A stretch of DNA of 64,000 bases from Diphasiastrum complanatum (lineage: Eukaryota; Streptophyta; Lycopodiopsida; Lycopodiales; Lycopodiaceae). The position numbers were made by a program, and so were the translations under genes. The notes under the pieces are model-generated. The model saw nothing but the letters and a program-made list of their open reading frames with translations. It did no database searches and was not told the origin of the DNA. How positions within the stretch are numbered: position 1 is the stretch's first letter; the number at the start of each line of letters is the position of its first letter. Shown here in pieces: positions 15,399 to 57,500 of the stretch. The stretch lies in contig CM055103.1 in the NCBI GenBank assembly GCA_029204225.1, forward strand, positions 57,401,705 to 57,465,704, given 5' to 3'.

Positions 15399-15489
15399 CT
15401 CTCCCTCAATGATCAACGTCACTTTTTATTTTAGATTATACTCTATTCATGGAACATACCTCCATGATAGCATCACAAGTAAAAGCATT

Positions 15490-16440: not shown

Positions 16441-16515
16441 GGCAATGATGTCATCATTTATAAGAACATAAAGATTTGGATCTGAATTTGTTCTTACAAA
16501 TCGATGTGAAAGAAA

Positions 16516-17271: not shown

Positions 17272-17322
17272 GTACCTCCCCCTAGGCTCTTGAATAGGTG
17301 GTGTTCTTTCATATTCGCCCTC

Positions 17323-18336: not shown

Positions 18337-18348
18337 ACCATATTCACC

Positions 18349-18888
18349 TTATTTTGCAGCATCCAGTTTATAAAGGCCACAGTTATTATCTCTATAACCC
18401 TTCGCCACCACTTTGTGGTTATGGTTCGTATCCTTCATAAGGCATCCATCCTTGACAAATTCAACTTTAGGATGTTGATTTGCCATCACACCAACAAAAA
18501 GCAAATTCTTTTTGAATCCAGGAACATAAAGTACATTAGGGATATTTTTAATTTTGCCATCAAGAAATTGCACAGGTACATTGACCACACCCTGTATCTG
18601 GCATTCCTCTCCATTGGCTTGAGTGACCTTATCCCCATCATGGATTGGTGAGAAGTTCTCAAACCAATCATGTTTTTCGGTCATATGCCTTGTGGCACCT
18701 GAACCTATGAACCATCTAGCACCATCATCAACTTGGGATGCCAATGCCGATGAGAAAACACTTGTTTCGTCATCTTCTCCATCATCTTTGGCAATGTTGA
18801 CTTGTTGAGTCACTTTTCCCGCCTTTATGTCTGCTTTCTTCTTATAACACTCGCATGCCAATGGCCCGGTTTGTGGCAATAGTAACAT
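18349..18888 (-). pseudogene. Protease region of nested copia element, active site lost
   Basis: The frame covers the end of the zinc knuckle and the aspartic protease. The catalytic motif reads WFIGSGATRHM, so the Asp of the family motif D-S/T-G is replaced by Gly. The sister copy at 13.8 kb keeps WFIDSG. The downstream NVLYVPG block is intact. Without the Asp, the retropepsin could not cleave. Confidence 0.88.
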
Positions 18889-19615
18889 TTTTTTTTCTTT
18901 TCCTTTTTTCCTTTTGATGACGATTCTCCTTCGTCATCATCATCCCTGGATTTTTTAGGAATCCTTTTCCATCCTTTCTGCTTGCCTTTAGCAAGCAAGG
19001 CTTGATCCTCCTGTGGGGTTTGTCTTGGCTTCACCATTTCGCGACGCTGCTCTTCTTGCAACTTGATTCCGTGGAACTCTTCAAAAGTAGGCAACCTCTC
19101 CCTCGAAGCAATGCCGCTCACAAACATATGTAGCCCTTCCGAGACACTGCTCATTGTGGTATGTACCAATTCAATATCTCTGATTGGTTTTCCAATCGCC
19201 ACAAGTTGATCTTCACCTCCTTTATCCTGGTGATGAAGGATCCCACTGATTCATTTTCTTCCATCCTTACTGTGTTCAATCTCGACTTCAAGAACATGGC
19301 TCGAGCTGGATTGCAAGTTTGAAATTGCATTCTAAGAGCTTCCCAAGCTCCCCTAGTCGTCGTGGCATCACTTATGTGAGTGATCACATGTTCTTTCACT
19401 GAAAGATTGATCAAGGATAATGCTCTCTGTGCCTTTTTATCAAAGGCCCTTATGTCATCTGGAGTGGTATTTGGTCGGACTTCAATACCTGCCACTATTT
19501 CCCACAACTCTTTTTCCATCAAAATGCTCTTCATTTTGAATTTCCAGATGTTGTAGTTAGAAGCCCCATCAAGTTTGCTTGCATCGCCCAAAATTGCCTC
19601 ATTGATGTTTGCCAT
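18846..19615 (-). pseudogene. Gag of nested copia element
   Basis: The first frame (19615-19151) starts MANINEAIL and has the copia gag core: YNIWKFKMKSIL, then TTRGAWEALRMQF and FLKSRLNTVRM. A frameshift near 19190 moves to the frame ending at 18825, which carries the basic tail and the zinc knuckle CYYCHKPGHW. A second frameshift falls within that knuckle. The leader from the primer site to this start is about 1.25 kb. Confidence 0.88.
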
Positions 19616-20875: not shown

Positions 20876-21125
20876 AGTTAAGAAAACACAATTGAAAACA
20901 CCCGACCGGATCAATCACCACAGCACAACGTCAAGTGCAACAAGAATTCAGAATTGCTCAATTTAAACTGTATATTACCAACTGCTTGTAAGTACAAAGA
21001 TGAGTTCCTTAAAAACACTCAAAGGGCTCGTAAAAGAAAGATGGCCCGATAACTCTAGAACTAACCACACGTGGTGCCGTCGAAATAGGAAAGCACTGTA
21101 TAAGTCGATCATTGCTATTTTAACT
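20876..21125 (-). repeat. 5' LTR of nested copia element
   Basis: 250 bp, direct repeat of 15149-15398. Its outer edge at 21125 is followed by the target duplication AAAAC, and then by the rest of the interrupted host element (AAGTATGCGGGCGAG). Confidence 0.93.
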
Positions 21126-32600: not shown

Positions 32601-35600
32601 AAACGGATAGACAAATTAAGATACTTCGCTCGAACAAAGGGGGAGAGTATCTTTCTACGAAATTTCAAGTGTTTTGCAAGGATCATGGTATAAAGAGACA
32701 ATTTGCAAATACGGACACGCCTCAACAAAATGGAGTTGCGGAAAGAAAGAACCGGTCCATAGTGGAAACTGTGAGGAGTATGCTCAAGAGTAAAAATCTT
32801 CCAAATATGTTTTGGGGTGAAGCAGTTAAGACGGCAGTTTATCTTTTGAATCGAAGTCCTACAAAGGTTGTAGAGAATCGAACTCCAGAGGAAGCTTACG
32901 CGGGTCGGAAGCCAGATGTAAGTCATTTGAGAGTGTTTGGAAGTATTGCTTATTCTCACATACCTAAGGATTCAAGGAGCAAATTGGATTCTAAGGCGAC
33001 CAAGTGTTTATTTCTTGGTTATGATAATCAAGAGAAGGGATACAGTATGACTTGGAGGGTAAGAAAATAATCATAAGTAGGGATGTAATCTTTGATGAGG
33101 AGGCAACTCATATAGATATAGAGATATATTTTGATAAAGATCAAGATGGTGGAATCCCTATATTATGTGACGAGTTATTACAGGAACCTGAATCGACACA
33201 TGTATCGCCTACGCCAATTCAAGAACCTAAAGTGTCTTTGGTTGAGATAGGAAAGAGGAAGGAGAGGTCAAGTGTATGGGATACTTATTCACCTCCTACT
33301 TCTCCAAGCAGGAAGCATCCTACGTCAGAAGCTAGAAGATTGCCTAGGCGATACTATGAAACAATCAAGGATAGTGTTATTATGGAACAGGGAGAGTCCA
33401 GTACACATGGAACTAGGAGATCAACTAGACTTGAAAAGCAACATGAAGATCAAGATCGACAAGAGGTTCGACAAGAGGATCATCATGAAGATGGGGATGT
33501 ACATTTTGCATATATGGCCACAGTATTAGAGACCAAGGATCCATCTACTTTCAGAGAGGCTGAAAAAGAGGATATTTGGAGGAAAGCTATGGATGAGTAC
33601 GACTCAATCATGAAAAACAAGACTTGGAGACTTGTTCAGCTACCTACAGGTAAAAAGGCCATTGGATGCAAGTGGGTCTGTTTCATGGGTTGGTTTTTTT
33701 TACATGCCCACGTGTGGACAGATAATTTAATTTGAGTGTACAAGGCCAACCGAAACATATTACACCACCACACCATGCTAAGGGCCAACAAGGCTTCATT
33801 GTTGCTGAACAAAAAAACTCTAGGGCCACAACACAATAGGCTGAACACTTTGCAGATGTAGCAAATCTGAAAAACTGACTCACTAAAAATACCCACACCC
33901 TAGTATGCCCCATGAATAGTCTGATTACCTGCTTATTCCAAAAGTTCAGAAATACAGAACATCAGGCTAGGTCTTTAGAAATCAGTAGAGCGATTGCATA
34001 AAGGCAAGATAACGGAAAAGATTGCTGGAATGTGTGTCAAGGCACATGAATGATTCAGCGAGAAAGCTATCATTTATTCAAATTATAGACAGGCTTACTG
34101 TATTTATCGTGAACTTGAGATGTATTTTTCATCCACTTCAATTCATCCACAACAGAGTTCCTTACCTGTAAGCATCTTTCATACTATTGGAACAAATCAA
34201 TCTTCTAGATCTTCATTTTCTTAGCATTTCCTTCAAAAAATGTCAATCAAATAGATTTTCTTTTAAAAAGAATAATAAGAATTTTTCAACATACAGTCCA
34301 CCATTGAGAGTTCTTCCAGCAATATATATAATACTTCGCTCTTCAAAAAAAACGCTGAAACATTCGCTTAGAGGTGAGAAAAAATGGTTATAAGGATTCG
34401 CTTAAGAGATAATCAGCTTCAAAATTGTGACTAAAAAAAAAACTGATGCATAACCTTACCAGATTTTGAAATGCTTCGACATAACAAGCTTACAAACTTT
34501 ACGTCTAGTAGTAATTTTAGCCACACCACAAAAAATATATATAATCGTTTAATAGTGGATAAGAGATTGAGATAGAGCTATTAAGAAAACAACAATCCAA
34601 CCTTTAAGAACTGTCCTCAACTTCTAACCAATCCCAGAATACATATCATGCTCCAATCAAAGGACAGAACAAAAAGCACATCAATCACAAACTTGAAATG
34701 TAGGCTAATGTATCAGTCGCTAATGTATCAGCCTCAGAAACCAGTTCCAACCATTTATAGTCCCAAGAAATACTCTCAACTTTTCTGGCATAACCCCATT
34801 TTAATGAGACAAATATTTGCCACGTCATTGCTGACAAAAGATGCTGCAAACTGTAGATATTATAAACAAAATAGTTGCAAAATGCAGGTGCTACAAAATT
34901 TCAGGTCAATGAGGACCCGATAGAGAAATTTTATAATTTTTCCCCCCCGAACTAGCTTAGAATTTCCGCTATAACTTTCTAGCCAAAAAATTCTGTCTGG
35001 TAAGTACACTTACATTTCTGCTCGACCTTCCAACCTACAAAAACGAAACTTTTTAGGCACCTGGGGGACCCTTAAGATTTAGCACTGAATCTAAAAAAGA
35101 GGATGGTTTTTCAAAGCTAGAATGTAAGATATCGTTTGCATTGAAAATACACCCCTCCCTCCAGAAAAAGTCAGAAGAACTAGCACAACTTTCAAAAAAA
35201 AGCTTTATCCCATTTCAGACAGTGATATATAAAAATGTTGAGGAACATTTGAAGAGAAAGGAAAGATGTCGATAGAGCGCAATTTACTACAAGTGTCTGA
35301 AGAACATGAACTGCAGGGAGAAAGTCGTTTCCTACTATGAGCTACCTTATGCTAATTTCAAAGGTGTTTTTGAAATTAAGAATGCACAAAGGTAATGATC
35401 AAACTTCACAAGAACAAAAACAACCCAATTAAATCAATCAATGTATAATCTCACCAGAGACAGTAGGATCTTCCAGTTTCTCGATTCTGACACAATTTCT
35501 CAGACTTGCAATTGTGCCTTGTCCCTTCGAATTTGAGAAAACAATCCCAGGAGAATCCAGCAGTTTCACATGCTTGTCCAACTGAATCTCTTGAACAACT

Positions 35601-41600: not shown

Positions 41601-44600
41601 TAGGTGGTGGAGATAATCATATATCACCAACTTAAAAAAATAGGTGCGCTTATTCGCAATTTCTTTACATTTGGGGGGTCCAAAGAGCTTAAATTTTAAG
41701 TCCATCAATTTAGCCTTGATCATAGATGCACAGAAACGCATTTCTGAGGGCACACATTTCTCCTCCCAGAATCGCAAAAAAAAAAAAAAAATTGGAAAAA
41801 TAGCTTATGGCTGAAATTTTTTTAGGGGATCAATGATCAAACCAGCATTTTGCCTCTCAGAAGTGCAGTAGATGGGGCACAAACAAATCTTATTTTCAAT
41901 AGCTATTTGGTTGTTATTTGCTCTGGTTTTCAATAAATGCTCAGGGGTTTCAGGGGGCTGTAGCCCCCTGAGAAACGGGGGGTTCGGGGGGCTATAGCCC
42001 CCCGAGAAACATGGGGTCCGGGGGGCGGTAGCCCCCAGTGGGGGGTTTGGGGGGCAACGCCCCCCAACGGCAGGGTCCGGTAGACCTCATTGCCCCCCAA
42101 CGGCAGGGTCCGGTAGACCTCGGCCCCGATGGTAAGGCCTCTTCATGACTTGGCCTTCCAACTCCCTGAGCGAAAACACACTTACTGGGACCATCTGTGA
42201 TCGTAACAGACAGGCTAGAGGTTAGTTTTGAATATTTATCCTTGACAGAACCCAACATGGATTAATGCACCTGAACTGGACCATCCTGCACCCGAAACAG
42301 TCGACAAACTACATAGTAATTATGCTCTTAATAAGAGCTTTCATCTGATACCCATATTGCCCATAAAAAAACCAAAAAATATATATATATAAAAAACGTT
42401 TCTGGAATTTTTTTGTACTTTTCAGAAACGCGTTTCTGAACCACGTTTCTGAATGCGATTTTGAAACGCATTTCAGAAACGCAGTGCATCTATGGCCTTG
42501 ATTAGGACAAATAAAACACAACTTCTTTCCCGGATGGTAATAATTAGTTTCAAGTCTCTGATTCCAAGTGTCAAGCAATACTGATTATAATCATTTCACC
42601 CCTAACTTCTAATACCTAACAAGACTTGTACCAAAAAACAAGGTTATCCAGTGTTGTCCTATGGTGGTTAAGATAACCATGTATCACCAACTTCAAAAAC
42701 TAGGTACCCTCACTCACCATTTAATTACAATTGGTGTCCATATAGCTTGAGTCCATCTATTTAGCCTTGATTAGAACTGATATAGCACATGATTTCTCAA
42801 CTTTTGAAGATGATAGTAATTAGTTAGTTGTCTACCAACATCTAGCAACAAGAATCTTCAAGTCTCTAACTCCAAATGTGGAGCAAATTATTGTCGTTTC
42901 ACCCCTAACTTCTATTATGCGGTAGGACTTGTACCAACATATTCTACCATACGTAAGATTGTCGATCAATTATGATTCTTAGTTCATTTCAAGTACAAGG
43001 ACTCGCTATATCACCCAATCTTCCCTTTGCCACAATAGATTTCTAACCCGTTGGTATATGGAACACATCAATTTCACATTCAAATGTTCAAAATTTCCAA
43101 AAAACTTTTGTAGACTTTTTTCCCATTCTGCGTACATATGCACATGCATGTAGATACGCATATGCATATAAATAAATAAATACATACATAACGTTTTAAG
43201 CATCTTTACAAATGTGCATTTCATGATTTTGCCACATTTTGAGACACATCCAAAACAAGTGCTTCAAAACGGTTCATTGAAAATATTGTATATCATTCCA
43301 AAACACAATGATAAATGCTCTTTTTTCTTATAATACAAAATTTAAACCTTGTACTAGAATTGGAATTTAACAACACAAACAAGAATAGGGTATATCAGGA
43401 ATTTGTGTTGCCATGTCAATGGAGGATCCGATACATAGATGTCAACTCTAGGCAATAGTAAATAATAAGAATGGCATTAAAAATCGCAAACACAAACAAG
43501 AACAATATATATCAAGAAAATGTGTCATTAAGTCCATGAACCAGGATCCAATACACAAATGTGAAATAATAGCAATGGCTCTAAAAACTTCTCCACATCA
43601 TTCCCACCTTTTTGATGAGATTTCCTTACTATCAATAGAAAACGAAGATAGGAATGCATTTAGAATCTGACCATGCATCTTTCTCTACCATGGCTGCTTG
43701 AGCGACCACAGCACCGGCTCTAATGCTCGTGCATGGGGTGTTGCATCTAATGTGCCTGACCCTAACTTGAAATGCAAATCCATGAGCTTCACATTGTGTT
43801 AGCCTATGTTTAACACAAAAACAACAAAAAAAAAACGGACGCGTCCGGGGACCCGGATGCACCCCTGGCGCGTCCGCGTCACGTGGACGCGCGTCCCGAC
43901 GCGCGTTCGCGTCTGGGGTCCGCCACGTTAGATCCACGTTAAGATTGTCCCCCGGTAGCGCTTTCTAATAACCCATCTTGTTTTGTAATCATCAACATTT
44001 CTAGGATCTAACAATGTCCCCTATATTTGTGCAAGCCAAGAGACAATGTTGGGTTTTGAACGCAGACGGGGATGTTTCATTGAATCTTAGGTGAGTATGA
44101 CAAGTTCACATGGTGGGGTGTAGTGTGTAAATCCACCCCGGACATTACTCCTCTTGCCACTCGCATCCTTGCTTAGGCCTGTGAGCAGAACTGGAGCAAT
44201 TGGTCTCTTATGCACACCAAGAGACAAGTTCAACAAGCTCAACATTCCCCGGCTAAACATGTTGCTTTATTGCACCACCAACTTGAGGCTAGTCAGGCAC
44301 AAGCAAAGAGATCGTACCCTTAAGGCAGGTAAACCCCAAGGCATGCCTTAGATCCATAAACACTACAACAGGCCATGCACACACAAGAGATCTTTTCAGA
44401 GTATCATCGGGAGATGGCACGTCATGATAGGAGGCAACACAAGACCACTAGGTCCATGGCTAGGGCCGATGCAGAGGATGCAAGAGAAGAGGGTGGGGAT
44501 GAGGTTGAGGAAGGATCTGATGAGGAGGAGGCCTTGGATGATGAGATGGAGATGGAAATAGGTGAGGATGTGGGGTTTGTTGACCCCTATGCCAAAACAC

Positions 44601-47600
44601 AGGCCGAGCCTGCACCACCTATACGCAAAAGGGGGATGGTAGGGCCTAGGGTATACCTAATGCATTTGCATGTTGAGCCGAAGACAACAGTATCACAAGC
44701 AACAGTCGGGCGAGGCCCTGGTAGACCTAGAGGCACCGGCAGAGGCAATGGTAGAGGTAGAGGCAGATGCAGAGGCAAAGGTTCACAGAAACGGCAACGC
44801 ATCCTTGAGGAGGATACCCTATCTTCCTACTCATCCAACAATGATAGTGATGAGGATGATATTGGAATATCAATCCACACTCTAGACAGAACTATCAAAC
44901 AGGGCGGATAGCTCAGTGGTAGAGCATCCCATCCGATATGAGGGAGGTCCTGGGTTCGAATCCTTTTGTCCATCCATATTATGATTTATGGATTTCTAAC
45001 ATGGTATCAGAGCCAAGTTAGACCTAACAGTTGATGGTGTCAAAGCCATAGTTAGGTGGCCCAAGTTGTGGGGCAGGTGACAGCTAGGACCCCAACCAAG
45101 TGTGGCTTGAGGGGGGGTGTTGGAATATCAATCCACACTCTAGAGAGAACTATCAAACAGGGCGGATAGCTCAGTGGCAGAGCATCCCATCCGGTATGAG
45201 GGAGGTCCTGGGTTTGAATCCTAGTCTGTCCATCCATATTATGATTTATGGATTTCTAACAGATGAATCTTCATCTAATCATGATGATCCGAGTCATAGG
45301 GATTTTCATGTCATAAGACTCTATTAAGTCTATTGTCCATCTATCAAACTCATGTACTTAGCCATTGGCCTACTCCTTAATATATATCAGATGGTATATA
45401 ACAATTTGATCATTCTCATGTGTGGAATGTGGATCAATTTCCATGTTTTGGTATCTATAATTACTTTCAAGTTTCAAGTTTAGTCTGCTAAGTGCTTTGT
45501 GTATGCTTTGTATGACCTATTTAGTATGCGTCGTTGCATCATATTTGATAACGGTTAAGAATCTAGAAGTCTTTACATGCTAGCCTCTAGGGTCTATGTC
45601 CATTCTTATTCTAGTTTGGTAGGATTCCGTAATTTTTTGGACGGTAGTTTGCTTGTCCTTAGCCCTTTGGTCATTCTCAATAACTGTATAATTTTGGATT
45701 CTGCAATAAGTGATATATTACAAAAAGCTTGCTAAACGGCTCCTTCATAACTCATTACCATGTATGATTGTAAACAACAAACCGGAGTCTAGACAATAAT
45801 AAAATCAAACACCATGCATCAATGATCACTCAACACTAGTACTAGATAGTTTGATTCATAGTTCACAGTGTTTTTTACAACCTATATGTGTTGCTTTTTT
45901 CCACTCTACACATATTTGATAACGGTTTGTATTGAATGGTAGTTTGGTTGTCCTTAGCCCTTTGGTCATTCTCAATAAGACTAAATTTGGATTCCGAAAT
46001 ACCATACTAGATAGTTTGAATCACGGTTTTCACTGTTTTGGATTTTTTTTACAATCTATTGTGTTGGATTTTTACACCGTGCACATACATGAAAAAAAAA
46101 CCCAAGAAAAAAGGCACTCTTTATGCTCATCTTGGAATTTCATTCGTAGTAGACTGTACTATGTGCTCACCTCAGGCCCGTGAACAGATGCATCTGCCAT
46201 CATGCATGTCAAATTTCAATTTTCAAAAACCATTAATCATTAACGAGTGTCTCGGCATTGAGCCTAAACTTCGAAGTGATTAAAAGTTGGAATTTTCAGG
46301 TTTCAAACATATAAATAGTCAAGTCATAATTGCACAGAATCGCGTTTCTAGGAGAAGACGTTTCGGAAACCGCGCTTCTGAGAAACGCGTTTCTCCTCCC
46401 AGAATCGCAAAAAAAAAAAAAAAAAAAAATATTTTCGATAGCTATTTGGTTGTTATATGCTCTGGTTTTCAATAAATGCTCAGGGGGTTCAGAGGGCGGT
46501 AGCCCCCCAAGAAACCGAGGGTCCGGGGGGCGGTAGCCCCCCGGTGGGGAGTTTCGGGGGCAACGCCCCCCAACGGCAGGGTCCGGTAGACCCCGGCCCC
46601 GTCGGTAAGGCCTCTTCATGACTTGGCCTTCAAACTCCCTGAGCGAAAACACACTTACTGGGACCATCTGTGATCGTAACAGACAGGCTAGAGGTTAGTT
46701 TTGAATTTTTATCCTTGACAGAACCCAACGTGGATTAATGCACTTGAACTGGACCATCCTGCACCCGAAACAATCGACAAACTACACAGTAACTATGCTC
46801 TTAATTAGAGCTTTCATCTGATACCCATATTGCCCATAAAAAAACCAAAAAAATATATATATAGAAAAAACGTTTCTGGAATTTTTTTAATAATTCAGAA
46901 ACGCGTTTCTGAACCGCGTTTCTGAACGCGATTCTGAAACGCGTTTCAGAAACGCAGTGCATCTATGAGTCAAGTCTAAGACTTAAGTAGAATGCAGTTA
47001 TTTCGAATTCAGCGTTCAATCAACAACTCAACTCTTTAGTCTCAGAATTTACACATTCAAATTTAAGGGCATTCAGCATAGTTTCCAGGCTCAAGCCGAA
47101 GTTCAGGCACATCTCATGATGGAAATTCACTTACCTGGCCTGATAGTGGCAATATTTTTAGTACAAATATGGATGATCTGAAGAACCTGGTCTATCACCA
47201 GCATATTCATCAAAAATTACAAAACAAAAATCGTGAAATATAAAAAATAAAGATGATTCGTGTCCTAAAGGGCTATTCAGAACTTGTGAAAATGGATTAT
47301 CAAACAACTCTGAATCAGCTGGGAACTATCATGCAGATGAAAATAACTTTGCTACTGAGGTGACTCCAAAATGCTCTGGTCTATCTGTTACCATCTAAAA
47401 TCTGCTAAAAATCACCATAAGAGATTGTATTTATTCTCTATAGTGTCAGTAAGAAATTCATACCAATTTTATTAAGGAGAAGGATAACGCGCTTGTTCAC
47501 ACCAGACTTTAACACAAGGCGTTCCAGATCAGGGCATCGAGTGCCTAGAGGATCACGGGCGTCCAAGACTTGGATTACCACGTCCGATGCCTCAATTACC

Positions 47601-48800
47601 TTCAAAAGTTCTCTGTAAAATGCCTTGTAAGACCCATCTGCACAAGGCAACGCCATAGCCAGTACCAAGTTACAAAAGAGGATTGGCAGCTTCAATCTCT
47701 GAACATTATTCATCACATAGGCATTTTTAAACAAATACCTTGACATAAAATTAGCTCAAAACTCATACTGAGAGGAGAGAAACCAAAACCTTGGACGGAT
47801 TCATTTGTGGCCAACACTGCAGAATTAGCATTTCTCTCTGCAAATTCAATGTCTCGGGCTGTGGCATCCGCTGACAGGTGTGTGAGTCCGTCGTCATCTT
47901 CATCTATCAAACCTAACTTCCTTTTTTGAGCCTGCATATGCCGCACTCATCATAAATTCTTTGTTTTTAAAGAAAAGGTACCTCGTAGCCATTAAAAAAG
48001 AAGAATCCAATCTTACACAGCAGATTTATCCATCCAAAAGGATGAGTATATGCAACCCAAAGATATCAACCGTGTGAATGCCATAATCATCAACAGGCAA
48101 CAGAAATCACAGGTACGTGATAAAAAACATAAACCCGAAATACCCGCTCCTTTCTGGCTTGTTTTTTGTCCTCTATTTCTTTAAGAGCCCGAGCGCGTCT
48201 AGCCTCAAGCGCTTGCAGCTCCTGCTCTTTAAAAGGCCAAGCATTTGGAATGCCTGGATCCTTCTCGACCTTGGCTTTGCGCTTCCCTAACTTCTTAGCC
48301 TCCTTTGCTTTTTTCTTATGATGTTCTTTCACCTTCTTCAAAATCTTGTATTTCTTCCGCAAGGGAACCCGCTTACTTTTACTTTCTTCACGAAAAGTTG
48401 TCAAGAAGACTTTAGATTATATTTGAAAACCTCTGTTCAATAGCGCCCACTACACTTTAATCTGGAATGCTACACATGTTACAAGGAATAAAGGACCCTC
48501 TTCCATCTCCAACCCTCCTCGGAAGTTGTATAACACCAAAAAACCAGACCATCAAGACAAAACCAGAAAAAGTATATCATGAAGACAAATACATAAAAAT
48601 ATATGAAGAAGACAAGAGCAGGAAAATCATATCATGAAGACAAAAGCATGAACATCAAGACAAAATCGGAAAAATCATATCATCAAGGATAAACCAGAAA
48701 AGTTATATCATCGAAAGAAAACAGAAAAATTATGTCATGAAGACAAAACCCTAGAAAAGGTAATATGATGAGGAAGGATACTCTTGCTACGCTTAACCAT
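29668..48800 (-). CDS. NSN1: Nucleostemin-like nucleolar GTPase, complete nine-exon gene
   Basis: Exons on the minus strand are 48800-48782, 48385-48144, 47931-47790, 47637-47464, 40456-40242, 35719-35455, 30723-30544, 30337-30123 and 30000-29668. All introns are GT-AG, every phase matches, and no stop interrupts 594 codons. The start lies in GGCCATGG, a good plant context. Residues 1-90 are the Lys/Arg-rich GN3L/Grn1 domain (VEKDPGIPN block). The GTPase motifs are circularly permuted: DARDP at 160-164, NKID (G4) at 190-193, GFPNVGKSS (G1) at 275-283, GATPG (G2) at 297-301, DSPG (G3) at 319-322. A C-terminal acidic stretch ends in a basic [11 protein letters not shown] patch at 536-546. In the family this protein acts in the nucleolus in large ribosomal subunit maturation. 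Introns 4, 5 and 6 are 7.0, 4.5 and 4.7 kb and hold transposons. A truncated copy lies at 52902-54055. Confidence 0.93.
30838..31301 (+). repeat. Copia-type LTR in NSN1 intron 6
   Basis: It starts TGTTAGAATTTAATG and ends TTTTGACA, directly followed by TGGTATCAGAGCC. A TATATAAG promoter-like box lies near 31140. The left flank CACGCACCTAG is also present in the NSN1 pseudogene copy at 53905-53913, which lacks the LTR, so 30838 is a genuine insertion edge. It differs in sequence from the shorter LTR at 31420. Confidence 0.75.
31302..31419 (+). mobile_element. PBS and internal domain shared with the TRIM at 45 kb
   Basis: TGGTATCAGAGCC at 31302-31314 is followed by a short domain with words such as GGTTAGGTGGCCCAAG and a purine tract of 9 Gs. 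It is almost identical to 45002-45117, the interior of the TRIM. Here it follows a different LTR, so the left TRIM LTR has been replaced. Confidence 0.85.
31420..31563 (+). repeat. tRNA-bearing LTR (TRIM type)
   Basis: 144 bp, from TGTTGGAATATC to GATTTCTAACA. It closely matches the two LTRs at 44860-45001 and 45118-45261. Its middle is a tRNA-like sequence. It is followed directly by a second primer site, TGGTATCAGAGC (31564-31575), and then by a copia ORF. Confidence 0.88.
31462..31533 (+). other. tRNA-like sequence with Pol III boxes in LTR
   Basis: The 72-base stretch starts GGGCGGA, has the A box TAGCTCAGTGG, a perfect D stem GCTC/GAGC, and the B box GGTTCGAATCC with a pairing T stem. 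The 3' arm TATGTCC pairs with GGGCGGA at 6 of 7 positions, allowing GU. The anticodon stem is imperfect and the base before the loop's middle triplet (CGG) is C instead of U. I read it as tRNA-derived but not a working tRNA gene. Confidence 0.8.
31583..33690 (+). pseudogene. Gag-less copia protease-integrase with RT stub
   Basis: A 495-codon frame (31583-33070) follows the second primer site almost at once, so gag is missing. It has [11 protein letters not shown] (protease, intact) and the integrase zinc finger ([22 protein letters not shown]). In the integrase core, two of the three acids are changed: VHTYLCGPM has Tyr for the first Asp, and RSNKGGEY has Asn for the second. Glu in VAERKNR is kept. 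A frame change near 33060 leads into the linker and the first RT block, which stops at GCKWV near 33680, where NSN1 intron sequence resumes. It cannot integrate or reverse transcribe. Confidence 0.9.
33691..35454. other. NSN1 intron 6, proximal part
   Basis: The first 130 bases are also present at 53935-54050 beside the NSN1 pseudogene. The rest is AT-rich intron sequence without recognisable ORFs or repeats. Confidence 0.5.
37229..37404. repeat. Two-copy tandem repeat, about 93 bp
   Basis: Two units each start TTTTTCTGAT and contain CTCACAGGAACAGGAACGAT, then a GATCAGACA-like string and GGCAGATAGG. They differ by a few substitutions. Confidence 0.75.
38405..38522 (-). pseudogene. Copia RT scrap, antisense
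   Basis: Minus-strand reading gives [20 protein letters not shown], then [10 protein letters not shown], a stop, and AWNT. This is the conserved copia RT block with a stop in the usual PRAW motif. Only about 40 codons remain. Confidence 0.8.
38847..39321 (+). repeat. Solo LTR candidate in NSN1 intron 5
   Basis: 475 bp from TGTTGGAATG to TTTCTTACA, with a TATA-like CTATATATATG near 39150. Flanks are GAAAT on the left and AAAAT on the right, a near-match of a 5-bp target duplication. No primer site or coding sequence adjoins, as expected after LTR-LTR recombination. Strand is set by the TG start, the CA end and the TATA box. Confidence 0.55.
41205..42960. repeat. Three imperfect tandem units in NSN1 intron 4
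   Basis: Units at about 41205-41380, 41670-42640 (split by a transposon) and 42720-42945 share words such as TCCATCTATTTAG, TTTCACCCCTA and GGACTTGTACCAA or close variants in the same order. The middle unit carries the hAT-type element at 41721-42494. Confidence 0.6.
41721..42494. mobile_element. Non-autonomous hAT-type element, copy A
   Basis: 774 bp. Left end CATAGATGCAC and right end GTGCATCTATG are an 11-base perfect terminal inverted repeat. GCCTTGAT at 41713-41720 and 42495-42502 is an exact 8-bp target duplication, the hAT signature. Subterminal regions are full of GAAACGCGTTTC-like inverted words. The middle has GC-rich hairpins of the form GGGGGGC-loop-GCCCCCC. There is no transposase. 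The third intron repeat near 42758 carries a single GCCTTGAT in the same context, an apparent empty site. Confidence 0.88.
43837..43930. repeat. GC-rich block with repeated CGCG words
   Basis: About 90 bases with ACGCG, CGCGTCC and GACGCGCGTC words in both orientations stand out in AT-rich intron DNA. The block lies just upstream of the hAT transposase tail and could be part of that element's subterminal region, though this is not shown. Confidence 0.45.
44902..44971 (+). other. tRNA-like sequence in TRIM 5' LTR
   Basis: 70 bases with A box TAGCTCAGTGG and B box GGTTCGAATCC. The 3' acceptor arm is shortened (TTTTGTCC), and the TTTT run could act as an early Pol III stop. Confidence 0.8.
45160..45231 (+). 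other. tRNA-like sequence in TRIM 3' LTR
   Basis: 72 bases. The acceptor arms GGGCGGA and TCTGTCC pair at all seven positions if GU is allowed, which is better than in the other copies. The A box is TAGCTCAGTGG. The B box has one change (GGTTTGAATCC). Confidence 0.8.
45540..46090. repeat. Imperfect two-copy tandem repeat
   Basis: GGTAGTTTG, TTGTCCTTAGCCCTTTGG and TCATTCTCAATAA recur about 290 bases apart (near 45645 and 45938), and ACTAGATAGTTTGA recurs near 45840 and 46006. Spacing differs between words, so the units have diverged by indels. Confidence 0.55.
46325..46967. mobile_element. Non-autonomous hAT-type element, copy B
   Basis: 643 bp, same family as copy A. The left end CATAATTGCAC is slightly changed and the right end GTGCATCTATG is intact. 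AGTCAAGT at 46317-46324 and 46968-46975 is an exact 8-bp target duplication. It shares the GAAACGCG words and the GGGGGGC hairpins with copy A, plus the long ACTGGGACCATCTGTGATCG segment. Copy A is about 130 bp longer. Confidence 0.88.
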
Positions 48801-49591
48801 GGCCTCTGCTACAGCGCGGCGCCTGCAGCTTGATCTGCTAAACAGGCAAAATCCAGGCCTTCTGATTCGAAAGGAGACTCGATGAATGCTTTGCAAATCC
48901 CAGCTCTTCCTCCGTAAAGCGAAGGCGAAGGTTTGCAAGCTATGTATGTATGACTGAAAAACACAGGTCGAACAAAGTGAGGCATTCTAGGGTTTTAGGA
49001 AACCCTAAAACAAAACTCTTAGGGGGCCTCTGCACACACAAGAGGGGACCATTCCACACCGCCTCTATTGTTAGCATGGTGTGTCCCACCAACCTGTTGA
49101 GTCGCAATAGTGCTTCTTGGTTTCCAAGGGGAGGCTCGAACCTGAGACCAAAGAAACTTTGGATGTCAAGCTAACCAACTAAGACAACCCCGTTGGGTAA
49201 GAGTCGCAATAGTGGAAGAACTATACGTGTAACCAGCCAAGCCCCTGCACCTGGACCAGCACAAGAAAGAAGACGAGCTCGAACTGTCAATTGTCTCCTT
49301 GGTGAATGACTAATTTCTATTTCAAGATTCTTCCTGCACGTTTATTGATCGTTGATCTAGGGTCAGGTGAAACCAAGTTTAGTTCTACGTCTGCTCCTCT
49401 GATACCTGCAAGAATCACAACTTAGACAGCCAAACTATTTGAAAAACGTCTACAACGGGCTTCGGCTAATCTCTAGCAAAGGGTGACCAATATGGTCCTC
49501 TTCGGTACAGTTGGACTGCAATCAGCTGATAAGGTCTAGCTTTCAAGATCAATTTTCGATGATCCGCCTTTGGAATTGATTTGTCTGGTTG
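48801..49591. other. NSN1 upstream region
   Basis: The NSN1 leader and promoter should lie here on the minus strand. The first 130 bases upstream of the ATG are GC-rich with CTTCGCCTTCGCTTTAC near 48912-48930. No clear TATA box was found. The rest, to 49591, shows no readable gene. Confidence 0.35.
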
Positions 49592-50162
49592 GATGAGGAC
49601 TCTATTCAGGTTTTGCAACAGCTATTTGGGTATCTTGTGGTAGAGGAGGCTTTTTTTGATTTTGTCACCAATCAAACGATTTTCGTTAAAAGATCAGAAC
49701 AAGTCAAATGCAAGAAGATAATGGTGTCTCCTATTATCCATTACAACAAGAGCCCTCTTCAAGCATATCTCTACTTCATTCAGTTTGTGTACGAATGCCG
49801 AGCTGTCAAGATGATGCTGCCTCGTAATAGGGTGGAAGTGAGTTTTTCTTTCTTCTATTTTCAATTTGGTCTGATCATTCTTTTACATAGTCGTATATCT
49901 ATATAATAAACAATAAAAAATATTGGTTCTTTGATCTAATAGTTCAACTCCCAATTTCAAATTTTACTCTTTTTTGTCATAGGTGACTCCTGCGTCAGGC
50001 TATCATTTGAAACTCCCTGTTTCAAGAGTTGCTGGAACAAGAAGTGGACGCACATCCTCAGTCCCGAACCCTAAAATTTTTGTTAGAGCAAAGAGAGAAG
50101 GAAAGAGAGAATGTGCAGAAGAGGCATGTAGCTTTCAATGTTTGCTCTTAGAGACTTTGTCC
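49592..50162 (+). pseudogene. Unknown two-exon unit, copy 1
   Basis: Exon one encodes DSIQVLQQLFGYLVVEEAF, then a Lys-rich stretch and HYNKSPLQAYLYFIQFVYEC, ending RNRVE before GTGAGT at about 49840. A 140-base intron ends TTTTTTGTCATAG. The second exon continues VTPASGYHLKLPVSRVAG and PNPKIFVRAK. Frame is open through both exons. The unit is repeated at 52309-52901. I do not recognise the protein. No start exon or stop was established, so it may be a captured gene piece. Confidence 0.5.
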
Positions 50163-50329
50163 ATACGTCTTTGCCTGAAATGGATTGGTTTTTGACAAGT
50201 TGAGTATTCCAAGGTACTACTTTTTTAAATCTTTCTTCTTAAAGGTTATTGGCAGGTAGTCTATGTTTTTTTGCCTTGATCTAAAGATCAGTTGATTAAA
50301 GATTGCTTGCTTTTTTTAATACAGGTAGA

Positions 50330-50757
50330 CATAATTGTTGAGGTAGACACGAAGCAAATGGAGCTGGATATGACATCAAGTATTGAAGATAAAGACACAA
50401 TAATTGCTATAGCTTTGTCATTTTTTAAACTCCATTCTCGAAATTCTTTACCAGGAGTAGCTACTGGCTTCTCCTCTGTTGGTTCTACCCATTGCCATAG
50501 ACCTTCGCCCTTCAATATGAGTGAAGTCTTTAATTTCCAAATCAAGTAGTTTGAATCTTCTAGATCCAAGATCGTAGTGATCTTAGCCTGAATATTGCTG
50601 ATCGATGACATCTTCTATTTTCTGAATAACTCCAGATGCGGCTTGCTGATGGATGTATGAAGAAATTTGCTGAGAGGGGTACGAAGATACTACTATATCG
50701 ACTTTGATTCGTTCTGATATCACTGTATCAGTTTTAATTCCGTAAGCTTTGATACCA
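50330..50757 (-). pseudogene. Copia leader and gag start, antisense copy of element 1
   Basis: The reverse complement matches about 439-800. It includes the inner PBS-like repeats (GCTTTGATACCA at 50746-50757 is the complement of one) and a gag start at 50611 with IQAKITTILDLEDSNYLIWK and then LILKGEGLWQWVEPTEEKP. The stop seen in element 1 at the start of gag is absent here. It breaks off after about 75 codons. Confidence 0.85.
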
Positions 50758-50815
50758 CCCAGCCAGGAGAACACAAAAAGGATTTTTAGATTTTGCAAGC
50801 TGACAACTCAATGAT

Positions 50816-51100
50816 ACAGAAATGAATTATTCAACCTCAGAGAGAGAAGCACTGACGATGATATATGCGGTTAAGAAGTTTCGGCACTACTTGATGGCCA
50901 CACACTTTGCTTTTTATACGGACCATCAACCTTTGCTCTATCTCGTTAACAAAACCTGCAACATAGGGAGAATCACTCAATGGCTACTCTTGTTGTTAGA
51001 GTTTCATTTTCAGATAGTAGTTCGCAAGGGAAAACAACACTACATGGCAAATCATGTGTCGCGTATCAAAGGAAAGGAGGTTGCACTCCAACCCGACGGG
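50816..51100 (+). pseudogene. Ty3/gypsy RNase H fragment
   Basis: The frame reads YSTSEREALTMIYAVKKFRH, then FYTDHQPLLYLVNK and GKQHYMANHVSRI. This is the RNase H of gypsy elements, with the SEREAL and YTDH acidic motifs in place. Only this domain is left. It ends at the outer edge of the palindrome at about 51109. Confidence 0.88.
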
Positions 51101-51108
51101 CCGATGCT

Positions 51109-52232
51109 CTGAAGATGCGGGAAGACGGTGATTCATCTTCATCTCGATTTGGGACAACTTGACTCCTATCAAGAATCACCCCATCTTTGTGGCTAAGACC
51201 TCTGCCACTTCCCCCCTCTTATACTCGATCAGGATCCCAACTGTTTTTGGCAAAGGTTGGCCCAATGGTAATAAAAAAGATCCACATACCCACGCACACG
51301 AGCTTCATTTGCTGGTGCTCGCAAGTTGTTTCCATAAACTGCAATGTTTGGCAGATAGACAACATTGGTATCATTCAACCGTTGCATGAGGGCTTGAGCA
51401 CTAGGCAAGAAATCTGACCACTCTTCTATTCTGAAAAAGTACGGGGTGCAGTGGGTCGTGTAACTGAACGAGATTTTCTTGGTGAGCCTCGGTTTTCCAT
51501 GCATGGCACATTCATGAATGTCAATTCCCTTGCGGTTACCACAACCATCTTCAGCACATTGTAAGACCACTTTAGTTTGTGATGTGCTTGGATCTACAAC
51601 AGATGTCTTCTCCAACTATCACTGTAGCATTTTTGACAAGTCGTTATGTCGCTAGCAGAAGGTCCTGCTAGCGACATAACGACTTGTCAAAAATGCTGTA
51701 GTGATAGCTGGAGAAGACATCTATTGCAAATCCAAGAATACTATCAACCTACCACATCACAAATTAAAGTGGTCTTACAACGTGCTGAAGATGGTTGCGG
51801 TAACCACAAGGGCATTGACATTCATGAATGTGCCATGCATGGAAAATCGAGGCTCACCAAGAAAATCTCGTTCAGTTACACGACCCACTGCACCCCGTAC
51901 TTTTTCAGAATAGAAGAGTGGTCAGATTTCTTGCCTAATGCTCAAGCCCTCACGCAACAGTTGAATGATACCAATGTTGTTCATCTGCCAAGCATTGCAG
52001 TTTATGGAAACAACTTGCGAGCACCAGCAGATAAAGCCCGTGTGCGTGGGTATGTGGATCTTTTTTATTACCATTGGGCCAACATTTGCCAAAAATAGTT
52101 GGGGATCCCGTTCGAGTATGAAGAGGGGGGAAGTGGCAGAGGTCTTAGCCACACAGATGGGGCGATTCTTGATAGGAGTCAAGCTGTCCCAAATCAAGAT
52201 GAAGATGAATCACCGTCTTCCCGCATCTTCGG
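51109..52232. repeat. 1.1-kb near-perfect inverted repeat (palindrome)
   Basis: Two arms of about 550-565 bases are reverse complements, with a centre at about 51661 and a six-base spacer (AAGGTC). At the centre GCTAGCAG (51651-51658) pairs with CTGCTAGC (51665-51672), and the match continues through GTCGTTATGTC / GACATAACGAC and outward to GAAGATGCGG / CCGCATCTTC. Arms differ by scattered substitutions and about 17 bases of net indel. Both arms encode the same protein segment in opposite directions. Confidence 0.95.
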
Positions 52233-52527
52233 AGCCAGAGAGATTACAGGTCCTCGGCAGATGAGTCGGCCTCAAGGTTCATCCTTTATCAAAATGGTGA
52301 GAACTGCAGATGAGGACTCTATTCAGGTTTTGCAGCAGCTCTTTGGGTATCTTGCGGTAGAGGAGGCTTTTGCCAGTTTTGTCACCAAGTATAATGAAAT
52401 GATTTTTATTAAAATATCAAAGCAAGTCAAATGCAAGAAGTTAATGGTGTCTCCTGTTATCCATTACAACAAGAGCCCTCTCCTTCAAGCATATCTCTAC
52501 TTCATTCATTTTGTGTACGAATGCTGA
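51646..52527 (+). CDS. Unrecognised ORF spanning palindrome arm and unknown unit copy 2
   Basis: One frame runs for 294 codons with a single internal stop (TAG at 52096-52098). The first part lies in the right arm. It has a Cys/His cluster (CGNHKGIDIHECAMH) and ends RVRGYVDLFYYHWANICQK. The second part, after the stop, is acidic (PNQDEDESPSS) and leads without a break into the unit repeated at 49592, with DSIQVLQQLFGYLAVEEAF. A stop at 52525 follows YEC, where copy 1 reads on. I do not recognise the protein. The continuity suggests that the arm and the unit are parts of one gene, and that copy 1 lost the front part. Confidence 0.45.
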
Positions 52528-52901
52528 GCTGTCAAGATGTTGTTGCCTCGCAATAGGGTGGAAGTTAGTTTTTCTTTTTTCTATTTTCAATTTGGTCTGA
52601 TCGTGAATTGAAGTACATATTTCCTGGCCAGTGATAAACCTATATAATAAACAATAACAAATATTGGTTCTTTGCTCTAATAGTTCAACTCCCAATTTCA
52701 AACTTCGCCTTTTTTTGTCATAGGTGACTCCTGTGTCAGGCTATCATTTGAAACTCCCTGTTTTAAGGGTTGCTGGAACAAGAAGTGGACTCGCATCCTC
52801 AATCCCAAACCCAAATTCTTGTTAGACCAAAGAAAAATGGAAATAGAGAATGTGCAAAAGAGACATGTAGCTTTTAATGTTTGCTCTTATAGTCTTTGTC
52901 C
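52309..52901 (+). pseudogene. Unknown two-exon unit, copy 2
   Basis: Direct repeat of 49592-50162, about 2.7 kb away. The first exon stops after YEC (TGA at 52525-52527) where copy 1 has CGA. Its presumed donor is GTTAGT instead of GTGAGT, and the intron has a larger middle. The second exon reads TPVSGYHLKLPVLRVAGT and PNP. It ends at the join to the NSN1 pseudogene. Confidence 0.7.
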
Positions 52902-54055
52902 GATTTTGAAACCTTTTTTCTCCGTTTCTTTTCAGCACGAGCTAGCCGTGGGTTCAATATACCATCTGCATCATAAAGTTTTTCGTTCTGACTAAGACCA
53001 TCAGCACGGACTCGATTGACTCTAGTTTCATTTATATCCATATCTTCAGGTTCAGCCTCCTCTGCTTCAACATTGCCAAACTATTCACCTTCTGAAACCT
53101 GCACAACATTACTGCTATGTTAAAGCTTAATGCAACAGCAGTACAAAAATATGAGAAGCTAATTGACACGGGTGAACTAGGTTCAGAAGAGGCCACGAAT
53201 GAGGGGAATAAGTTGCTAATCAGTGATATTTCCATGTCCAAGGTCATGGGAGCACCGGAAGGTATTTCTGTATGACTGCCATCAAGAAGCGAGGATAGGC
53301 CTGCAATCACTGCAGATTGCTCATCTTTTCACAAACTCCTTTCCCCAGTCGGCAACTATTGCTGCTTCAGAACATTGACTTGCTTCTCTAACAGGAGGTA
53401 AGGAGTAATGAGGAATTTTTCCTGTAATTTCAAATATGAGGTACTGCCTTCCGTGTGTGGAGGGATTTGAATAAACAATGATTCTTAAACTGATACTTAT
53501 CAAAAGATCTGCTTTTAATAAAGATAGCATAGCAATATGCTAAAAAGAGTGCAAATACTTTTCATAGACGCAAAATGGAGCCAAAATAATAATAATTTGC
53601 TAAAATTTTACTGGTCATACCTTCGTTTCAATCATGGAGGACCACTCGTGCAGCGGCTATTTTGTCTACAAGGCTGCCTTTTTTTAGTTTTCCACGCATG
53701 AGAGCCACATTTTGCAGAAAATCATCCACTGAACTGAAATGTGTAATCTTGTACAATGACATCAACTTCTCAGGACGGTAGAGTTGTAAAATTTCTTGCA
53801 CTCCAACCATATGACAAAGCACAATCATGGATTGCCAAAACAACTCAAGCAGAGTCAACATTCCTTTCATGCTTTAAAAAAGTCCTGTGCAGACCAATGT
53901 AGCACGCACCTAGATGCAAGATTAAATGGGATACGTGCCCACGTATGGACAGAAAATTCAATTTGATTGTACAAGGCTAACCGAAGCATATTACACCACC
54001 ACACCATTCTAAGGGCCAACAAGGCTTCATTGTTGGTGAACCAAAAAACTCATGA
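52902..54055 (-). pseudogene. Truncated NSN1 copy, exons 7-9
   Basis: Direct duplication of about 29800-30837 and 33690-33815 of NSN1, in the same orientation, introns included, so it is a DNA-level copy and not a processed one. The last exon is truncated and its Gln codon for residue 490 is a stop (GGTGAATAG). Exon 8 has an 18-base-scale deletion near 53328. The copia composite found in intron 6 of the real gene is absent here: the sequence goes from CACGCACCTAG to GCCCACGT in about 25 bases. Confidence 0.9.
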
Positions 54056-54299
54056 GGGTTTCTAATGTCAGCATAGTGGAAACTATATTGTGCAATTCAA
54101 TGTTATTTGAGTAGCTAGACAAAGCATTAATCAGATCTTTGAATTAGTATAAACATTGACTACAAATTCTATGTTCTCGTATTAAGTTCTGCAACAATTC
54201 ACGAAAAACAAACGCTGGAAAGTATAGAAAAGATATACGTACCATCAGGATGGTCACAGTATGACTTCCTCTGTCCCGAGCATCAGCAGCTTCAGATTC

Positions 54300-54730
54300 A
54301 GCAACTGTGTAGTTCATCTGGTATGTGTGCATACCCAACACAGCCAAGCACTTTCAAGTGACTGATGTTGGGCTTTCTATTATGCCATAGCTCGTATGGA
54401 GTATGCTTACCCAGATGTTTATTGGGTAGACGATTCAGCACGTACACGACAATATTCACAGCTTCCGCCCAAAACTTCATATGCAGTTGTTTCTCTATGA
54501 GAAGACATCGAACAAGATTCAAGAGCTCGTATGGAGTATGCTTACCCAGATGTTTATTGGGTAGACGATTCAGCACATACCCAACAATCTTCACCGCTTC
54601 CGCCCAAAATTTCATACCATGAGAAGGCATCGAACAAGATTCAAGATCGTTCTGTTCATGCTCTCTGCGATGCCATTTTGTTGGGGAGAGTACCTCACCG
54701 TCAATTCTGTACGAATGCCAAATGCCAAAT
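54300..54730 (-). pseudogene. Copia integrase C-terminal fragment with internal duplication
   Basis: Minus-strand reading gives MKFWAEAVKIVGYVLNRLPN, KHLGKHTPYEL and HLKVLGCVGYAHIPDEL, the post-core region of copia integrase. The segment from FWAEAV to PYEL is present twice because of a 135-bp tandem duplication (54389-54523 and 54524-54658). The period is a multiple of three, so the frame is kept. No catalytic residues are included. Confidence 0.85.
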
Positions 54731-55355
54731 GCAATGAGTTTTGCAGTAATCTTTGCATTCATTTGAAATGTACTCTCCTGAGATAGCCGATCCTCCTCCC
54801 AGGTACACTTCTTTTCATTTGTGGTATACTATAGCTATAAATATGCTAAAGTTACTTCATTATATATTTCAAAAGTTACTTCATTATATATTTCACTTTG
54901 ATGTTGAATTGAAGAGAAAAGATCACACTACATTGTTTATATATGGATTAGAATGAAACATTTGTTGGCCTTGCATTGCAAAGGCAATATTATGTGGTGA
55001 GGTTGGTCAATGGAGTTATTTAAAAAGTTAACATTAAAAATATGTTGGTGGTGAGAGCTCAAACTTTAAAGGCCTGTCTTTCGTTAAGGGCTTTTGTTAT
55101 GCATGACTATTTTGTTAACGGTCTAAATAGAACATGGATCAGTTGGCATGCAAAACTTCAGCGTGCAAACCATGCAGATCGTTGAAGTGCAGGCATAATC
55201 AAAAGCAAAACTTAATTTGGTTATGAATTATTATGGATTCATGCATTGTTTTCATGAGCATAACCAAAAGCAAAACAAATGCATGGATGGATAATTTTTT
55301 AAAAGCAAAATCTTAAATCTTAAAAAACAATATTTATACTAGTAGTAGTAGATGG
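54731..55355. other. Non-coding stretch
   Basis: AT-rich. A short direct repeat (AGTTACTTCATTATATATTTCA, twice) lies near 54850-54900. No gene seen. Confidence 0.35.

Positions 55356-55357
<2 letters not shown>

Positions 55358-55398
<41 letters not shown>
55358..55398. repeat. (CT)n microsatellite
   Basis: About 20 uninterrupted CT units. Confidence 0.95.
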
Positions 55399-55400
<2 letters not shown>

Positions 55401-55424
55401 CTTGCCAAACCCATTTTGGATTTT

Positions 55425-55611
55425 TCTGAAATGCATCTAAGTAGTTGTGAATTGTCAAAAATTCTTAACTCAGTGGACTTAGATCATGAGCAAATAGAGA
55501 AGAATAAGATCTTAGCTGAATTCAAAGATGTTTTTCTAGTTGAATTACCTCATGGAATACCACCGTCTAGGTCGGTAGACCACATGATTGAGCTAATTTT
55601 AGGTAGTCACC
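55425..55611 (+). pseudogene. Ty3/gypsy pre-RT fragment
   Basis: The frame reads ILAEFKDVFLVELPHGIPPS followed by RSVDHMIELILGS. This matches the block just before gypsy reverse transcriptase, normally E-x-x-DVF-x-x-x-LP-x-G-x-PP. It is cut at 55611 where a CAGTGTTGGGTGGG end begins. Confidence 0.8.
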
Positions 55612-55859
55612 AGTGTTGGGTGGGTATATGGGGTTATGGCTGGTATTAACCCGAGTATCATAACCCCTACCAGCCTGGTATATAAAAATGAGATATCCAC
55701 CAATTACTAGGATGCCTCTGGTATTAAGTCGACAATACCATGGTCAAAATCAAACCAGTGTGGTATACAAATCTAAAATACCCGGGATATATCCAGACTA
55801 GGACAAAATTGAGGATACAACCCTATGTCCGGGTATCATATCTCAAAAAAGATTATTTT

Positions 55860-57500
55860 AATTACAAGCCTTCAAATAATCATTAAATGTCATTAATACT
55901 CATATTAAATAGACCATCCATCTCTCATGTCTCATTAATTAGACTACAGCCGGTTCGCTATTCCCATCGATCCTCTATCTCCTCCATTTTTCCTCAGGGC
56001 TCCATCGAACTTGTTTCCTTTGCTTGCGCCTCATTGCTCACGCCTCATTGTTCTTTGCTCGTTGGTGTTGATGCTGCGCCTCATTTGCTCCTTGCTCCTT
56101 GCTGGTTGTTGGAAGCGCCAACCACCTCATTGCTTTGCTTGTTGCTGGCTGTTGGAAGTGCCACCATACACAGGGATACAAAGGACCATGTATTTGAATT
56201 GAAGTTGGTATGATAGTCCGTTTTGACAATATGTTTGATGTGGATGATAATTTCACCAGTAGTCTGAGTATTGCATTTATGAGTTCTGAGAAGTAATGCC
56301 TTGTCTCAATATTTGTAAAAGTTTGGTTTGGTTTTGTCATAAGCGGTGTTGAGAAGTAGTCTATGCCTTAGGAATGGTAGCATATCTTTCCTAGCCAGAA
56401 GGCCTTAGCCTCAACAGATAGTCATTGGATCAATATTAGTCTGCATTGCAACACATATCTGGCTCAACACTCACAAGGTAGCAAGCATCTGTGGCCAGAA
56501 ACATCTGCTTGAGATGATGTACCCTACTTCCACATCTTCAGATAGCTATCCAGCAGTCGTGCTCAACCATTAATGGATACAATGATCTGGAAAAGATCCT
56601 TTCAGAGGCGAAGGAATGTTGAAGAGCACCCTTGCCCAGCCGTTCATGAGTCTGTCAACAGGGCGTTGACAACCCTGTCCCTCAACGCAGCCTCACTTCT
56701 CCTCTTCCTCTCTGATTAGTATAGAGTCATCCTATCCCCCATAGTTAGTCACGATCCCTACTCTCTCTTTCTCAATGGACAACATTGTTTGATCTTGCGC
56801 TCTGCCAGAGCCTTCAACAAGCTCTACATCTCTCTCTATCGAGCCAGCAACCTCTTCTGCCAACGAACTTCATCTCCTTCAATGGACGAATGAAACACAT
56901 GAAGAAGAAGAAAGGGGGGGCCTTGAAGAAAGGGGATCCGTGATTTTAAATTGGTGTGAAGAACTAAGACCATCGTAGTAAGATATGCATTCCCATTATG
57001 CTTATGCTGATTATACTACTTTTGAACTCTGCTCCTCCTTTAGGAACAATAATTCATTGGTAGACATTAACTACTGTTTTTTAGCTCAATGATATCAAAC
57101 TTACAACAATTTTTTTGGAGGTAAACTATGTGAGTAAGTTATCAAATTTTGATGCTAACCCAAAGTAATTTTCTAAAGTTCCATCATCTAGTCTTCAGCA
57201 AATTATTTCAATGCATAACAGATTGAATAAAATCTTACTCTTATGGAAATTCCTCAGTGTCAGTTGTCCTAGTAGATACACTGTAGATTAGTCCATGGCT
57301 AGTAGGCTTGTATAGCTTACATAATCACGTTAAATTGCTCAAATGTTCCCAAAAAAATAGTTTTCCTAATACTATGAATTGAATCGCATGAAACTGATGA
57401 GCATGCTTTGTATGGACTAAAAAGATGGCAACATCTTTCTTCTTGTAGATCTATGCTGTTAAGGGGGTCACGCTTCTTTTGTAGAAAGTTTGACAGTTAC
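55860..57500. other. Non-coding part of hAT element
   Basis: Lies between the subterminal repeats and the transposase. It has CT-rich and GCTCCTTGCTCC-like strings but no readable gene. Confidence 0.35.

Follow-up and report, generated by a model that had tools for sequence, protein, structure and literature searches.

A 1.1-kb short-loop palindrome, probably a foldback duplication of the 5' half of a pseudogene

How does a genome come to carry two arms of about 550 bases that are reverse complements of each other and only six bases apart, and does such a structure silence anything? We addressed this question for a palindrome in a window (the whole stretch of DNA analysed) of 64,000 bases, C12:57401705-57465704, from a genome of 1.74 Gb, presumably that of a plant to judge by its genes, its retrotransposons and the CHG bias of its decay. 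Here, we propose that the palindrome is probably a short-loop foldback inverted duplication of the 5' half of a pseudogene (X1), lying among clustered pseudogenes and since then subject to methylation and decay.

Geometry and pairing of the palindrome

The initial annotation had described arms of about 550 bases, a 6-base spacer and scattered mismatches, and the arm alignment bears this out. Three nested inverted pairs from the repeat search together make up the two arms (Table 1). In a gapped alignment of 571 columns, 523 of 553 ungapped positions are identical (94.6%), and the mismatches, which had been left for counting, amount to 30 substitutions (26 transitions and 4 transversions) and 3 indels. 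The gaps, of 16, 1 and 1 bases, each represent bases absent from the left arm. The longest run of perfect pairing between the arms is 90 bp, 144 windows of 24 nt pair perfectly, and the RNA of 51106-52235 is predicted to fold as a single hairpin (-989.1 kcal/mol). By comparison, when 15 further segments of 10 kb from this genome were scanned (blastn E 1e-8, arms <1000 bases apart), the longest palindrome measured 230 bp, at 70.5%, in what is a small sample (150 kb).

Table 1. Positions (in the window) of the palindrome and its neighbours
Feature	Positions	Strand	Basis and remarks
Unit copy 0 (X0)	49592-50162	+	Truncated second family member without arm sequence; direct repeat of unit copy 1
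GN3L_Grn1-domain exon	48090-48416	-	Only such match found in the genome
Repeat fragment	50390-50758	.	98% inverted match to 438-806
Retrotransposon fragment, presumably Ty3-type, RNase H, truncated	50760-51105	+	Pfam RT_RNaseH 6.8e-19; abuts left arm; left coordinate is the query start, not a mapped boundary
Left arm	51106-51658	-	Inverted-repeat detection and arm alignment; truncated inverted copy of the X1 5' half
Spacer, palindrome centre	51659-51664	.	6 bases
Right arm	51665-52235	+	Arm alignment and family match; X1 5' half in its original context
Pseudogene X1 (arm and unit)	51844-52569	+	Match to intact relative L015, aa 25-263; in-frame stops
Unit copy 1	52309-52901	+	X1 continuation, outside the palindrome; direct repeat of unit copy 0
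Partial copy of 29796-30837	52902-53913	-	Junction with unit copy 1 lies at 52901/52902

A third copy of the arm was not found by DNA and protein searches of the 1.74-Gb genome, which short matches can escape. Searching the genome for the single-arm sequence, as the initial annotation had suggested, returned only the two arms matching each other, and within the window none of its 15-mers recurs outside the palindrome. There is thus no sign of a multicopy element.

Coding ancestry of the arms

That the arms are of protein-coding descent, as had been claimed, is confirmed by their homology to a host gene family. The right-arm frame does continue past a stop into a duplicated unit, and its length is no more than moderate given its composition (an equally long open run occurs in 31 of 2000 shuffles and in 12 of 112 window segments). 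The query for the X1 match, L015, is a relative on C11 of 344 aa that is open throughout. By tblastn, X1 matches it with 33% identity (E 1.4e-31), and in the genome search the same interval was recovered at E 1.6e-27 with one TGA and one TAG in frame. The left arm matches L015 on the minus strand in two pieces (51516-51196 and 51215-51147, aa 14-142, E 5.7e-9). Taken separately, the arm ORF matches L015 weakly (29% over 82 residues, E 2e-6, in that single comparison) and the unit frame more strongly (36% over 142, E 2e-20). Because one L015 match spans both the right arm and the adjoining unit, the two make up a single degenerate gene, X1, of a small host family, and the left arm repeats the front half of that gene in inverted and truncated form. 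The right arm is the original, since it is continuous with the rest of the gene.

Unit copy 1 is an 86% direct copy of X0, whose own family match (49610-49843, aa 184-263, E 1.5e-14) begins beyond the part held by the arms. DNA search of the genome found no further copy of the unit. Distant relatives of its protein are present on C11, C14, C21 and on smaller contigs, and the frames of some of them are open over long stretches.

What might this family encode? The arm proteins alone matched no named family convincingly in Pfam, NCBIfam, PHROGs or PDB: hits to Pfam DUF681 (E 0.18), to PHROGs (E 0.078 or weaker) and to PDB (E 0.58 or weaker) were treated as noise, and NCBIfam gave none. Relatives of the arm protein were not confirmed among viral or bacterial/archaeal contigs, nor, among viral contigs, were relatives of L016, a longer protein of the family. 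A single-sequence structure prediction for the arm ORF (mean pLDDT 38.9) was set aside. By reading, the family relatives carry a D and, after it, an E-V-K-like motif (a D...ExK-like stretch), and the members on C14 and C21 extend into a weak kinase-like C-terminal region. Two relatives (L014 and L015) gave no Pfam match. None of the matches of L016, to PK_Tyr_Ser-Thr (E 0.041), and of L017, to Pkinase (E 0.014) and to Pkinase_fungal (E 0.029), reaches the cut-off. Against PDB, L016 weakly matches a kinase chain (E 0.52), and the best match of a profile search is a putative transmembrane protein (E 0.97), with kinases at 1.5 and 1.8.

The CR, or Crinkler, REase-kinase proteins may be similar to the arm-gene family. 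Proteins of this type are present in land plants, and about one sixth of CR C-termini couple the REase to a kinase, according to passages of PMC5289972. What the family relatives would have in common with the CR (Crinkler-RHS-type) REase-kinases is, by our reading, a D...ExK-like stretch, together with a weak kinase-like C-terminus; unlike in those proteins, no Pfam family reaches the cut-off, the link being made through motifs and weak kinase scores. Kinship with the CR REase-kinases is accordingly offered as a lead, to which profile searches lend no support.

Other family loci also contain rearranged copies. A second locus, C20:6313695-6314128 / 6314407-6314818 (L019 2196-3319), holds an older inverted repeat, whose arms match at 69% and are separated by about 280 bp; contigs C1054 and C1531 contain it too, at 99.6-100%. 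In this repeat the 3' ends face inward, opposite to the geometry of the palindrome, and the frames are interrupted by stops. In L025 (C2911:26500-34000) the C11 family gene recurs as a split copy, its halves oppositely oriented and separated by about 2.7 kb, which is either an inversion or a misassembly. Upstream of an open family frame on C11 (L027 2569-2691) is a 123-bp imperfect palindrome (73%), also found in L025 and L026. The inverted arrangements are thus the C12 palindrome, the C20 repeat, a C14 pair at 37.39/37.40 Mb and the rearranged C2911 locus, and the direct ones are a C11 pair and X0/X1. Since inverted and direct neighbours are about even, we claim no family habit of inversion.

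Divergence, age and methylation imprint

The arms have diverged by a K2P distance of 0.057 and the X0/X1 unit pair by 0.104, so that the palindrome would be younger than the X0/X1 duplication if rates are alike. Substitution rates of 1.3e-8 to 2.5e-9 per site per year would put the age of the arms at about 2 to 11 million years. The copy of 29796-30837 that adjoins unit copy 1 stands at a K2P of 0.051, and a neighbouring 120-base piece (33701-33820) at 0.0885; beside the value for the arms, these would allow, though they do not show, a single complex event. The 22 of 30 arm substitutions that fall inside the ORF are spread over codon positions 1, 2 and 3 as 7, 7 and 8. Hence we see no sign of selection on the protein after duplication, a pattern that suggests neutral decay.

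The transitions are biased in their context. Of 26 arm transitions, 20 are at CG or CHG sites where 10.8 are expected, an excess reached in 0 of 2000 simulations. The CHG sites account for 11 (4.5 expected, P 0.0025) and CG sites alone for 9 (6.4 expected, P 0.17), while CHH transitions are depleted (6 against 15.1 expected). This CG/CHG excess is best read as an imprint of methylation: in Arabidopsis mutation lines, deamination of methylated cytosine has been described as a source of mutations, which are in excess where CG and CHG sites are methylated (PMC8145854, in part). The CHH depletion, in turn, gives no support for strong RdDM. Methylation would not be special to the palindrome, because the same CG+CHG bias is seen in 2 of 6 other pairs (the unit pair, P 0.0025, and the 41891/46430 pair, P 0.0035), with P values of 0.05 to 0.16 in the remaining four. 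The imprint thus appears to be partly common to the neighbourhood and strongest in the palindrome. We do not claim the transition excess itself as special to the palindrome, its 26:4 ratio giving a Fisher P of 0.18 against the other pairs pooled (leaving out pairs copia, D5 and 31), 0.026 against the unit pair alone and 0.39 against 29796/52895 alone.

Origin of the palindrome and prospects for hairpin RNA

In light of the arms being two copies of the front half of one gene, how might the second have been made? The palindrome has the hallmarks of a foldback: a short spacer, one arm continuous with the native gene, and another truncated at a foreign junction. The mirror symmetry stops at 52235/51106, where the left arm adjoins the RNase H fragment, which we take to be of Ty3 type. 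The family of this fragment is very numerous (3326 first-look candidates); among the 40 scored, which include the window itself, the two of 39 relatives that were aligned keep their match to 51098, and five of the 39 reach 51108. The proposed course of events is that a break near the X1 5' end exposed a single-stranded end, which would have folded back on a short inverted repeat with a 6-base loop and primed synthesis over about 570 bases. The newly made inverted arm would then have joined the retrotransposon fragment, and the locus may thereafter have been a methylated, silent relic, possibly maintained by its own hairpin siRNAs in cis.

Foldback inversions in yeast have a median loop of 5.5 nt in mre11 and 5.0 nt in sae2 strains, and of 35.5 nt where MRE11 and SAE2 are intact (PMC7467729, in part). 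When DNA was broken next to an imperfect 11-bp repeat, the spacer of which was 6 bp, inverted duplications arose mainly in nuclease-deficient strains, and two of three inverted duplications in wild-type yeast used a 35-bp spacer (PMC10622511, in part). The 6-base turn of the palindrome agrees with the short loops of mre11 and sae2 strains and with the 6-bp spacer, which speaks for a foldback, but in yeast a loop of this length is typical only of nuclease-deficient cells. Also counting against a foldback is that the primer repeat is invisible for want of a known pre-duplication sequence. The palindrome resembles the inversions described in these sources (PMC7467729; PMC10622511) in its adjacent inverted copies, its short loop and its native sequence on one side with unrelated sequence on the other. 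It differs from them in that they are fresh and of chromosome scale, whereas it has arms of about 570 bases that have diverged, lies in a plant-like genome and has no identifiable primer repeat.

Several other routes to an inverted repeat were weighed against this one. A similar outcome could result from template switching at a fork (PMC10766183) or from the fusion of sister chromatids. An assembly artefact, with a foldback chimeric read incorporated in the contig, deserves mention because the palindrome is found at one place only and so has no haplotig to confirm it; but the arms differ at 5.4% of sites, with context-biased transitions, and the left arm runs on into Ty3 sequence instead of a mirrored right flank. 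Given the divergence and this continuation, such a chimera would be an unlikely source, and we give it very little weight. Even less probable is a transposon of foldback or MITE-like type, its terminal inverted repeats being long, which would account for the shape but not for there being one copy found in 1.74 Gb, for the continuity of one arm with a gene, or for the outer flanks, in which no target-site duplication was seen by eye. A foldback duplication of X1 hence remains our preferred origin, and on this reading a short-loop palindrome has persisted in a plant-like genome until its arms are 5% apart, with the original arm still recognisable from the continuation of the gene.

What, then, of silencing? 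The initial annotation had suggested that a hairpin RNA might silence the related unit, and this we find unsupported: X0 begins after the part held by the arms, and a third copy of the arm was not found in genome searches that short matches can escape. A possible, though tentative, alternative predicted from the structure is that of an endogenous hairpin-siRNA locus acting in cis, in which long dsRNA would be processed by DCL2/3/4 to 21-24 nt siRNAs that methylate their own locus. Consistent with this are the near-perfect 1.13-kb predicted hairpin that folds as one, the many perfect 24-nt windows, the methylation imprint, and the descriptions of Arabidopsis IR71, processed likewise (PMC12825306, in part), and of a 621-bp aquaporin inverted repeat in soybean that yields siRNAs (PMC3534067, in part). 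Against it, CHH transitions are depleted, and the family match starts a mere 180 bases or so beyond the turn (51844 against 51665), so that little of the upstream region of X1 is left at the centre. Like IR71 (PMC12825306) and the soybean CHS and aquaporin repeats (PMC3534067), as far as these sources describe them, the palindrome is long, self-complementary and a potential source of long dsRNA, and like the soybean repeats it is gene-derived (PMC3534067). Unlike them (PMC12825306; PMC3534067), it has no close homologous target that we could find and little original 5' region at its centre.

Action in trans is much harder to support. MIRNA genes have been described as arising through inverted duplication (PMC3237417, in part), and the arms stem from a family with long open frames elsewhere, so that the palindrome could be a silencer of its gene family or a young MIRNA gene. 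However, no other arm copy was found by DNA (to E 10 with the left arm as query) or protein, the two relatives compared with X1 are only about 33% identical to it as protein, none of the 12 family loci fetched has a blastn match to window positions 48001-56000, and unit copy 0 lacks the arm region. Similarly, no homologous target in trans was found elsewhere in DNA and protein searches of the genome, which matches of 21-24 nt could escape. As in young MIRNA genes (PMC3237417, in part), part of a gene has been copied in inverted orientation; the palindrome differs from them in its far longer stem and in that no near-identical target was found. We thus regard a trans-acting role as improbable. 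A little less credible still is a broader scheme in which the family, perhaps of nuclease-kinases harmful if expressed, repeatedly makes inverted duplications whose hairpin RNAs restrain it; touching on it are the inverted repeat at C20:6313695-6314818 and the opposite orientation of the C14 pair. At the palindrome centre, two Rfam models scored below their gathering thresholds, MIR7526 with 63.9 bits (threshold 110), on both strands and mostly through compensating pairs with few consensus letters, and MIR6274 with 50.2 (threshold 80), again mostly through compensating pairs. We rejected both matches, which most likely reflect no more than the near-perfect pairing of a hairpin.

Should small RNAs arise from the palindrome, it would represent a hairpin locus that lacks obvious targets and could serve as a test of whether such loci persist for cis methylation alone; otherwise the palindrome would be an ordinary repair scar.

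The surroundings hold further rearrangements. At the junction 52901/52902, inspection of the sequence gave essentially no evident microhomology. Among the frames tested, the GN3L_Grn1 exon is the nearest host gene recognised by a family model. Judging from motifs, 29796-30837 may belong to the same gene, and four frames of its copy searched against Pfam did not confirm this membership. A larger, nested inverted repeat spans 13535-18974 (13535-14571 / 17938-18974 at 92% and 14571-15149 / 16266-16844 at 94%) and is accompanied by a direct copy, 15149-15398 / 20876-21125. A direct repeat at 41891-42494 / 46430-46967 is partly GC-rich, with CG-biased transitions. Finally, a 100-bp near-tandem duplication lies at 54382-54616, within a frame matching a retroviral-polymerase SH3-like domain.
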